Source of the DNA: Melioribacteraceae bacterium
Lineage (GTDB): Bacteria > Bacteroidota > Ignavibacteria > Ignavibacteriales > Melioribacteraceae
Assembly (NCBI GenBank): GCA_011525875.1
Contig: WYBN01000010.1
Span: 62,001 to 126,000, forward strand
DNA: 64,000 nt
Reading direction: 5' to 3'
The translations under genes and the position numbers were made by a program. The notes under the pieces are model-generated. The model did no database searches. It was not told the origin of the DNA and saw only the letters and a program-made list of their open reading frames with translations. This document shows positions 59,123 through 62,388 of the stretch, piece after piece. Each line of letters starts with the position of its first letter. The first letter of the stretch is position 1.

Positions 59123-60586
59123 ATGAAGCAAAATGAATTTTTTACGTCGCGGTGGGGACTTGTATTAGCTACTCTCGGAATAGCAATAGGAACGGGCAAT
59201 ATCTGGCGTTTTTCACGAATCGTTGCGCAGAACGGCGGCGGCTCTTTCTTAATTCCCTGGGTCGTGTTTCTTTTGCTATGGTCTGTTCCATTAATAATTT
59301 CTGAATTTGCACTCGGTAAATACGGCAGACGCGGTCCTATAGGTTCAATTGCAAAAACTGCAGGTAAATCCTTCGGGTGGATGGGCGCTTTTATAGCCTT
59401 TGTCTCTACAGCAATTATGTTCTATTATTCAGTTGTTACCGGCTGGTGTTTTAAATATCTTTATTCCTCTCTCTCGGGCGGACTTCTTCAACATTCAAAC
59501 CATTTTGATTATTGGAATAATTTCTCGTCGGGTTATGAGCCTGTGCTTTTTCATTTTATCGCGCTGCTTTTTGGTTCGATTGTAATTTACAGAGGAATTG
59601 TCAACGGTATCGAGAAGGCGAATAAATTTCTCGTAAGCTCTTTGGTAATCATTTTGCTTTTTTTATTTGTCAGGGCTGTAACACTTCCAAATGCTATTGA
59701 AGGGATAAAGTTTTTCTTCACTCCGAATATAGACTACATTCTTGATTACAAAGTCTGGCTGAACGCACTTACGCAAAATGCGTGGGATACCGGCGCAGGC
59801 TGGGGTTTGATTTTAACCTATGCAGTTTATATGAAGCAGAAGGAAGATGTACCTCTCAATGCAGCTTTAATTGGGTTTGGAAATAATTCAATATCCTTAC
59901 TTGCGGGCATAACAATTTTTTCGACAGTTTATTCGCTTAGTTCGGTTGATGCGATGAATCAGATTTCACAGTCCGGACCCGCGAATACCGGATTGACCTT
60001 TATATATCTGCCTCAACTATTTAACAGTATTTCCGGGAGCTACCTATTAAATACACTTTTTGCGTCAGCATTTTTCCTTGCGCTTTCCTTCGCTGCCCTG
60101 TCATCTCTTATCTCGCTGATTGAATTAACAACACGGACTTTTATGGATTTCGGATTTGATAGAAGAAAGTCTGTAATTTTAGTCGGCTCGATTGGATTTT
60201 TATTCGGACTTCCGTCCGCTATAAATATTGATTTCTTTGTTAACCAAGATTGGGTCTGGGGTGTCGGTTTGATTATCAGCGGGGCATTCATTTCTTTCAG
60301 CATAAATATGTTTGGTGTCGATAAGTTTCGCCGCGAAGTTATAAATGCACCGGGGAGCGATGTAAAAATCGGCAGATGGTATAATTTTATTATTAAATTC
60401 CTTATACCTCTTCAGGCTGTTTTATTGTTGGGTTGGTGGCTGATTTCATCAATTTCATGGGAACCCCAATGGTGGAATCCATTTGGCAAAGAAAATGCCG
60501 GCACAAGTCTTTTTCAATGGGGCATTGTAATTTTTATTTTTGTTTATTTCAATAAATTTATTGTTGAAAAAACTATGAGGGAATAA
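59123..60586 (+). CDS. sodium-dependent NSS/SNF-family transporter
   Basis: About twelve helices of the neurotransmitter:sodium symporter fold. The first helix has GIAIGTGNIWRFSR, the conserved unwound region of this family, with later TGWCFKYLYSSLSG and ALTQNAWDTGAGWGL. The ATG at 59123 is chosen. The small gene right after encodes a MetS-type subunit, so methionine or alanine are the best guessed substrates. Confidence 0.94.
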   Translation: MKQNEFFTSRWGLVLATLGIAIGTGNIWRFSRIVAQNGGGSFLIPWVVFLLLWSVPLIISEFALGKYGRRGPIGSIAKTAGKSFGWMGAFIAFVSTAIMFYYSVVTGWCFKYLYSSLSGGLLQHSNHFDYWNNFSSGYEPVLFHFIALLFGSIVIYRGIVNGIEKANKFLVSSLVIILLFLFVRAVTLPNAIEGIKFFFTPNIDYILDYKVWLNALTQNAWDTGAGWGLILTYAVYMKQKEDVPLNAALIGFGNNSISLLAGITIFSTVYSLSSVDAMNQISQSGPANTGLTFIYLPQLFNSISGSYLLNTLFASAFFLALSFAALSSLISLIELTTRTFMDFGFDRRKSVILVGSIGFLFGLPSAINIDFFVNQDWVWGVGLIISGAFISFSINMFGVDKFRREVINAPGSDVKIGRWYNFIIKFLIPLQAVLLLGWWLISSISWEPQWWNPFGKENAGTSLFQWGIVIFIFVYFNKFIVEKTMRE

Positions 60587-60697
60587 TTGGAAATAGCCAC
60601 TATAGCAACAATTGTCATTATAACAGGAATTGTCTGGGGAGGTCTGGGCTTTTTCTTGTTGAAAGCGATTAAAATGGAAAAGAAAAAAAATGGGTAA
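60587..60697 (+). CDS. metS: MetS-type NSS transporter small subunit (36 aa)
   Basis: Starts at TTG 60587, right after the transporter stop, and reads MEIATIATIVIITGIVWGGL, then GFFLLKAIKMEKKKNG before TAA. One membrane helix with a WGGL motif, then a basic tail: the known pattern of the small MetS subunit that follows NSS transporters of the MetP type. It overlaps the holA start by 8 bp. It is below the length at which genes are normally called. Confidence 0.85.
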   Translation: MEIATIATIVIITGIVWGGLGFFLLKAIKMEKKKNG

Positions 60698-61709
60698 AAC
60701 CGATAACTTTAAAACAGAATCAATTTATAATCTTGGGCATTATTTAAAAGAAGAAAAAATGCTTCCGATATATTTTCTATTTGGGGAAGACTCTCATACA
60801 ATTGCAAGTGCCGTTAAAATTCTCTCAAATTTTCTTGATCCTTACATAAAAAGCGAGTTTGATAAAGAAACTATTAGAGCAGAAAAGAGTTCAAATATTC
60901 TGCAGATACTTGACCTTGCGTATTCTTTTCCGTTCGGCGGCGGGAAAAAATTACTAGTGATAAATAATTTCGAGAATATTTCAGATAAAAATTCTTTCAC
61001 TGCCTATGTTGATAATCCGGCTGAATTTACCGTTCTAATTATCACACAATCCGGGAAAAAAGTTGATTTCAAGCGCGGTTTATACAAAAAGCTAGTTGAG
61101 AAGAATTTTATTTTTATAGCAAATGAGCTGCGCGGTGTGGAACTTCAACATTGGATTATTCGAAAAGCGAAAGAGCTAAAGCTGAGAATTACGCCGGAAA
61201 ATGCCATGCTGCTTATCGACATAACAGGGGAAAACAAATCTTATATTGAAATGAGTTTGATCAAACTTCAAAATTATCTGAACGATGGCGAGGAAATTTC
61301 TTCGAGTGCAATTGGGGAGATGGTTTCGGCTACAAAGGAATTTTCTATTTTTAACCTCCTTGATAAAGTGGGCGAGGGTAATAAATCGGAAGCGCTTAAA
61401 ATAGCGTTCAATCTGGTTGAGAACGGTTCGAGCCCCGTTTATATTATAACCATGCTAACAAGGTTTGTTACTACAATTGCACAAACTTTTGAAATGAATA
61501 AGAAAAAAATACACAAAAAAGAGGCTGCTAAAGAGGCGGGAGTTTCGGAATATTTTTATGAAAAATGTGCAAGAGCTGTTTATTTTAAATCCGCCTCACG
61601 GCTCCGGCAAGCCGCTAAAGCCTTGCTTGAAGCCGATACCGCAGTTAAATCGACTTCAATCGACGAAAAGTCCGCTGCTTCAATTCTGATAAGTTCTTTG
61701 ATTGAGTGA
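60690..61709 (+). CDS. holA: DNA polymerase III subunit delta
   Basis: The clamp-loader delta subunit. LPIYFLFGEDSHTIASAVKI is the family start; the later QHWIIRKAKELKLRITPENA and LIDITGENKSYIEMSLIKL fit the AAA+ domain II. The length of 339 residues is normal. It overlaps the metS 3' end. Confidence 0.92.
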   Translation: MGKTDNFKTESIYNLGHYLKEEKMLPIYFLFGEDSHTIASAVKILSNFLDPYIKSEFDKETIRAEKSSNILQILDLAYSFPFGGGKKLLVINNFENISDKNSFTAYVDNPAEFTVLIITQSGKKVDFKRGLYKKLVEKNFIFIANELRGVELQHWIIRKAKELKLRITPENAMLLIDITGENKSYIEMSLIKLQNYLNDGEEISSSAIGEMVSATKEFSIFNLLDKVGEGNKSEALKIAFNLVENGSSPVYIITMLTRFVTTIAQTFEMNKKKIHKKEAAKEAGVSEYFYEKCARAVYFKSASRLRQAAKALLEADTAVKSTSIDEKSAASILISSLIE

Positions 61710-61800: not shown

Positions 61801-62388
61801 TTGAATAAGCATTTATCAGGTCTGACTGACGAAGAATTAATCAAAGAGTTTCAAGACAACAATACTCTCCAGGCATATGAGATATTGGTGAAACGCTACA
61901 AAGACCCTTTGATCAATTTCGTTTACAGATTTATAGGCGACAAGGATGTTTGCTCTGATATTGTTCAAGATACGATGATTAAGTTCTATTTGAACAAGGA
62001 TTCTTATAAGTCCTTCGCAAAGTTTTCTACATGGATTTATACAATTGCGGGGAATCTTGCAAAGAACGAATTGAAAAGGAGAAAGAGAAGGGTGATATTT
62101 TCACTCAGCTCCGCAGACGATGATGAGAAGACAATCCAGGTTGAGGACAAGTCGTTTTTCAGTCCGGATGTTTCAACTGACAGTAGAATTAAAAATGATA
62201 TTATTCAAAAAGCGTTGCTTAAAGTTAAACCTGTTTACAGAGAAGTTGTAATACTAAGAGATATACAGGGTTTTTCTTATGAAGAAATTGCAGAAATAAC
62301 AGAACTCTCGATTGGTACAGTCAAGTCGAGAATAAACCGGGGGAGATCACAATTGCAGAAATTATTAAAGAATATTTACAAAGAGTAG
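61801..62388 (+). CDS. RNA polymerase sigma factor, ECF subfamily
   Basis: A 195-residue sigma factor. Region 2: LVKRYKDPLINFVYRFIGDK and DIVQDTMIKFYLN; region 4: VKPVYREVVILRDIQGFSYE and EIAEITELSIGTVKSRINRG. The start is TTG (61801); no earlier ATG is in frame. It is followed after 3 bp by a putative anti-sigma gene. Close to the RpoE-like group. Confidence 0.94.
   Translation: MNKHLSGLTDEELIKEFQDNNTLQAYEILVKRYKDPLINFVYRFIGDKDVCSDIVQDTMIKFYLNKDSYKSFAKFSTWIYTIAGNLAKNELKRRKRRVIFSLSSADDDEKTIQVEDKSFFSPDVSTDSRIKNDIIQKALLKVKPVYREVVILRDIQGFSYEEIAEITELSIGTVKSRINRGRSQLQKLLKNIYKE

Follow-up and report, generated by a model that had tools for sequence, protein, structure and literature searches.

Judging from its sequence, the short open reading frame at 60587–60697 on the forward strand very probably codes for a small subunit, one of the two proteins that make up an NSS amino-acid transporter; throughout, the window denotes the whole 64,000-nucleotide stretch of Melioribacteraceae DNA in which the frame lies. 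The small gene, which we assign to the MetS_like_NSS family, is intact, starts with TTG (taken as M) and translates into the 36 residues MEIATIATIVIITGIVWGGLGFFLLKAIKMEKKKNG, with one predicted membrane helix and a basic C-terminus. Its TTG begins at the base directly 3' of the transporter TAA (60584–60586), its 3' end overlaps holA by 8 nt (holA ATG at 60690), and a candidate ribosome-binding site, GAGG, can be read at 60577–60580 of the same strand, 6 nt 5' of the TTG. The first-pass annotation had described a TTG-started 36-residue gene between the transporter stop and holA, with one membrane helix carrying WGG and a basic tail; its coordinates proved exact, and a single helix is also what is predicted in our model of a homologue (L102, see below).

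The upstream gene (59123–60586, forward strand) codes for a sodium-dependent transporter of the NSS (SLC6) family, a LeuT-like large subunit that matches PF00209 (SNF) with E 3e-57, and also NF037979. The start given for it in the list of open reading frames, TTG 59117, probably lies 6 nt upstream of the true one, since most of the 28 aligned proteins start at the position of ATG 59123. Downstream lies holA (60690–61709, forward strand), which encodes the DNA polymerase III delta subunit (TIGR01128, E 4.3e-60) and comes next after the small gene at 33 of 36 loci, contig ends truncating the remaining three; holA is a conserved neighbour, and a functional link to it forms part of none of our inferences.

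Conservation and family of the small gene

Purifying selection acts on the small open reading frame, which is a conserved gene. Among 79 genomes from the family to which the window belongs, we found 37 orthologues of the transporter at nearly full length, counting that of the window, the others being 61–75% identical to it; the remaining matches were paralogues of about 30–36% identity and two short transporter fragments (G053 and G073), which are left out of the count. Of the 37 orthologues, 36 (window counted) are followed by a small ORF in the same frame, with the WGG helix, two of these copies (L021 and L036) being truncated by contig ends, and in the 37th (L039) the contig stops 41 nt past the transporter stop, those bases forming the beginning of such an ORF. 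Selection was assessed on a 28-codon core in 35 copies from 22 genera, with the short L036 copy left out and L010 identical to L011 over this stretch. The core contains no in-frame stop, against 104 and 33 stops in the other forward frames, and its pN/pS is 0.50 in frame, compared with 1.00 and 1.14 in those frames and a mean of 0.89 over 60 shuffles of the columns, the lowest of which gave 0.68; a value of 0.58 is obtained for one reverse frame, which has 11 stops. Neither an unconserved frame nor neutral-like change, which the first-pass annotation had named as the findings that would speak against the gene, was thus observed. Among 34 aligned copies, the W17-G18-G19 motif (codons at 60635–60643, forward strand) is the best conserved, both of its glycines being invariant, and W17, A27, E31 and K34 are each conserved in at least 90%.

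Profile searches support placing the peptide in the broad MetS_like_NSS family (NCBIfam NF033493), and not in MetS proper. As the first-pass annotation had anticipated, a MetS-type profile recognizes the window peptide: NF033493 matches it over profile positions 1–29 of 30 with E 3.7e-4, its 20.1 bits lying below the curated annotation cut-off of 25, which some homologues exceed. Four of ten further homologous peptides are above that cut-off (44.9, 39.0, 28.2 and 27.1 bits), as are matches in 3 of 20 relatives' genomes, and 33 of the 34 copies in the family, that of the window among them, match the model when E is allowed up to 1 (best 1.1e-7). The Pfam model PF16951 (MaAIMP_sms) gives the window peptide 12.7 bits, with a cut-off of 26.2, and, with the same limit on E, picks out 23 of the 27 peptides in the wider set (best 7.1e-8). 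Because NF033493 also finds matches in 5 of 14 control genomes (E up to 0.1), three above cut-off, weak matches to it prove little by themselves; the sequence homology is continuous from the above-cut-off homologues down to the window copy. The MetS equivalog model, NF033494 (cut-off 70 bits), did not match the window protein at any E up to 10, and its cut-off was reached by none of the 34 family copies (best E 0.0015) and none of the ten further peptides (best 32.6 bits), so that it would be unwise to transfer the substrate of MetPS to this pair. The proposed likeness to the small subunit of MetP-type systems therefore stands at the level of the broad family, and is not supported for MetS proper or for methionine/alanine specificity. 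A search of PDB chains with the small-subunit profile found no convincing relative, the best match (E 0.004) covering 18 residues of ammonia monooxygenase subunit B. Scoring below both the NCBIfam and the Pfam cut-offs, the window copy would tend to escape annotation; our analysis corrects the annotation in that the small gene is real in spite of these scores, and it adds a member to an already known MetS-like family.

The large subunit and a predicted partner helix

We folded, as a single chain, the L102 transporter (a homologue 66% identical to the window transporter), its own spacer of 46 residues, in which stops were replaced by Gly, and the peptide, using an alignment of 50 rows of which 10 held both proteins. 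In this read-through model (mean pLDDT 87.4, spacer below 50), the peptide is predicted to form one helix at residues 542–575, with pLDDT of about 92–94 over 541–570. Model residues 4–489 align to LeuT 5–507, TM12 included (Z 43, rmsd 2.4, 462 residues), and MhsT, a protein of 11 helices, aligns with the model just to residues ~442–447 (Z 40). Since the LeuT alignment runs through TM12, the large subunit appears complete and the peptide would be an extra helix; the structural matches (VIA-align, Foldseek) concern the transporter chain only and are thus uninformative on the peptide itself. An apparent placement of the small subunits on TM1, obtained by aligning lone small subunits with transporters, was dropped. 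Separately, we noted that D224 of the transporter (59786–59788, numbered from the TTG start) is invariant in 28 aligned orthologues, the residue at this position being Thr in MhsT and Ser in the dopamine transporter entries shown. We take this to be the sodium-site-1 position in LeuT, and an invariant Asp there suggests that sodium coupling may be unusual.

On the reading we favour, one message would carry both genes, translation of the peptide following immediately on that of the transporter, and the peptide would insert as one helix. By the positive-inside rule, the basic end of a membrane helix is cytoplasmic, and the basic C-terminus hence suggests an N-out, C-in orientation, with this tail in the cytoplasm. 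The peptide may then dock through its WGG face against the outer surface of the LeuT-fold subunit, adding a 13th helix; in this position it would aid assembly, stability, turnover or cycling and leave the substrate and sodium sites to the large subunit, itself a putative sodium-coupled amino-acid importer.

Partnership, separation and apparent absence

By adjacency and co-occurrence, the small gene is tied to one NSS transporter clade. In a phylum sample of 395 genomes, searched with the small-subunit profile at E 0.01 and the transporter profile at E 1e-90, both genes are present in 21 genomes of the window's family and order, neither in 19, and one without the other in none, which is the co-occurrence that the first-pass annotation had expected in related genomes. 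Two further genomes of the same class (G082 and G290) have both genes too; three others of that class (G313, G341 and G368) gave weak small-profile matches (E 5.5e-4 to 0.0095) with this transporter absent, the G313 peptide scoring 14.1 bits to NF033493, a match that ranked behind another model. Elsewhere in the phylum, this transporter type occurs in 88 genomes, three of which (G095, G142 and G381) have a partner found by the small profile, the transporter standing without a detected small gene in the other 85; distant copies may be missed here, because members of the window's family were used to train the profile. The small gene of G381 adjoins its transporter, which is 37% identical to that of the window. 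Matches in G080 and G300 were rejected as false, as they sit in the long frames of unrelated proteins. The earlier claim that the peptide makes the transporter a two-component system is in this way upheld as a partnership of genes, from which its status as a component is extrapolated.

A scan of named genomes, in part the same assemblies as in the other samples, extended this picture over the best 80 of 576 loci. The small gene comes after the transporter in 54 of these 80, the pair occurring in Ignavibacteriota, KSB1, Calditrichota, Acidobacteriota and Aminicenantes, among others, and it was not found in the flanks (up to 3 kb per side) of the other 26. These comprise 19 members of a Rhodothermia/Balneolaceae clade, which takes in two Woeseiaceae and one Acidobacteriota record, five members of a mostly Gemmatimonadota clade, L159, and L139, where an 18-residue weak match (E 0.051) was left uncounted. 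When 14 of the 26 genomes were searched whole with a broader profile (A3, E 0.1), four were found to carry the small gene elsewhere, all in the mostly Gemmatimonadota clade, and no small gene was found in the other ten, namely L134, L159 and all eight Rhodothermia/Balneolaceae genomes so searched. Because those ten genomes, with no detectable copy, still have transporters belonging to the same clade (about 50% identity), the small gene is not universally required, and its apparent absence beside a persisting transporter suggests that the peptide is evolutionarily dispensable. No recognisable remnant of the small gene was seen upstream of holA in 26 holA loci, of which one (L231) begins at a contig edge and four come from the mostly Gemmatimonadota clade; two of the 26 carry hydrophobic ORFs unlike the small-gene family. 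Among transporter residues altered in both clades that have no adjoining small gene, P47 to A was, insertions aside, the only change to pass our filter, and A at position 47 is also present in 9 of 55 transporters that do have the small gene.

Seven genomes keep the small gene apart from the transporter. In one (G034, locus L027), a GxxExxY gene (TIGR04256) is inserted between the two, and the small gene, 486 nt downstream, has its family sequence intact. In the mostly Gemmatimonadota clade, three of four parted pairs lie on one contig, 3–7 kb apart and in one case on opposite strands, and the fourth is split over two contigs; all four genomes contain a single transporter from this clade, and any other NSS match in them is below 220 bits. 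In G095 and G142 the small gene, found between der and holA, overlaps holA when that ORF is taken at its longest, and an ECF sigma-factor gene comes next, of the kind present at 61801–62388 in the window; the two peptides score 18.4 and 18.6 bits, respectively, to NF033493. The G095 transporter is on a different contig, and that of G142 lies 1.25 Mb off along its single contig. The position of these two small genes (L208 and L209) at the der-holA site is apparently a remnant of the window-type gene order. In G454 (L166/L205), where the parted small gene lies about 5 kb downstream of the transporter, the gene directly upstream of it belongs to the tryptophanase family (NF009709, E 9.8e-208), a faint hint of an aromatic substrate in that genome.

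A second tree was calculated from 67 transporters, after 26 rows of the first tree (near-duplicates, type-C paralogues, and the long L159 and L162) had been dropped and six added. There the G142 transporter is sister to Rhodothermales-type rows (support 97/95), on a fairly long branch, a placement that fits a progression from linked to unlinked to lost; a regain of the small gene might conceivably have occurred instead. One could speculate, with appreciable doubt, that the peptide is a trans-acting, dispensable 13th NSS helix which, in the Rhodothermia branch, went from linked to unlinked at holA and was then lost, the transporter having evolved independence. If this were true, a comparison of the two branches, with and without the partner, would give direct access to the role of an auxiliary helix in an SLC6-type transporter. 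The transporters with an adjoining, a separated or an undetected small subunit form a natural set for studying the function of a single-helix partner in SLC6-type transporters.

Other NSS paralogues differ in what follows them. A second type (about 30% identical) is followed in three of five loci examined (L047, L048 and L052, out of L046–L049 and L052) by an ORF of 35–43 aa without WGG; one of the three matches NF033493 weakly (15.3 bits), and these ORFs are possibly a second, divergent small-subunit family. A further type (L002, L040–L045, L050 and L051; about 31–36% identical) has no comparable small ORF. The gene after it has one common start pattern across loci, and in L002, the one locus profiled, this gene encodes an AGCS sodium:alanine symporter (TIGR00835). 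Downstream of the transporter in L244, on a plasmid of Persicobacter sp. JZB09 whose record carries no annotation, we observed MEWDSLMSMFLILGSVMSAFGYFLHLASKAEKEK, which lacks WGG and is a possible divergent small subunit.

Alternative readings and known systems

The ORF is short, starts with TTG and touches both flanking genes, as would a frame that is open by chance, or a spacer whose translation merely couples that of the transporter to that of holA. We consider this extremely improbable, given the constraint at the amino-acid level across 22 genera, the conserved WGG helix with its family profile match, the copies away from the transporter in seven genomes, and the several clades in which the pair has no holA match downstream. 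It is also very unlikely that the peptide is a split-off TM12, completing a 12-helix NSS fold in trans. The 11 helices of MhsT and the start of the peptide at the transporter stop would be compatible with such an arrangement, but the L102 transporter model spans LeuT through TM12 on its own, well beyond the end of its MhsT alignment, and this fold alignment led us to discard the split; moreover, the relative reading frame of the transporter and small genes varies among relatives, and no natural fusion of the two was found among the loci examined. The fusion candidates in the phylum sample were two long open frames that turned out to be unrelated proteins, and a stop-free stretch upstream of the small ORF in G082. 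A read-through product was likewise rejected, since, of the 36 copies, most are out of frame with their transporter, although that of the window is in frame.

More serious is the question of whether the peptide regulates or inhibits the transporter, in the manner of regulator-type peptides such as AcrZ and MgtS, instead of being an obligatory subunit. The persistence of Rhodothermia/Balneolaceae transporters without the small gene fits an accessory role of this kind, but the strict co-occurrence in the family and order and the position next to the stop codon better fit a constitutive partner; we regard a regulator as somewhat unlikely, and infer that the peptide is a subunit. Within the subunit reading, the pair might be a true MetPS, a methionine/alanine importer, as the broad family and the gene order match a plasmid gene annotated for methionine/alanine import. 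This too seems unlikely, since the NF033494 cut-off is out of reach for the window protein, the 34 family copies and the ten further peptides alike, and the window transporter is merely 33% identical to the Priestia transporter.

The small subunit of a two-protein transporter, as we read the window gene, has annotated counterparts on plasmids, which a search with one homologue as query recovered. The Peptoclostridium acidaminophilum member (WP_148296003.1, beside WP_025437010.1; E 0.01) resembles the window's in having 36 aa, one hydrophobic helix and a basic tail, and that of Priestia megaterium, with 38 aa, was matched at E 8 and is backed by its annotation and by 30 bits to our in-house profile. 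Both, like the window peptide, have WGG at residues 17–19 and a gene that adjoins the transporter stop, and their partner transporters are 27% and 33% identical to the window's; unlike these annotated MetS-family members, the window copy scores below the curated cut-off and has holA as its neighbour. In the large subunit, the fold is like that of LeuT (2a65, 7dix and others; Z 43) and MhsT (4us3; Z 40), a likeness that applies to the transporter chain only. MetPS of Corynebacterium glutamicum reportedly consists of an NSS large subunit and a small subunit encoded in a two-gene layout. The window pair shares this layout with MetPS, whereas the methionine/alanine specificity of the latter is unsupported for it. 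The C. glutamicum MetPS study (Trotschel et al. 2008) is cited in PMC5105988 and PMC2807442, and metS has rows of its own in a table of the latter.
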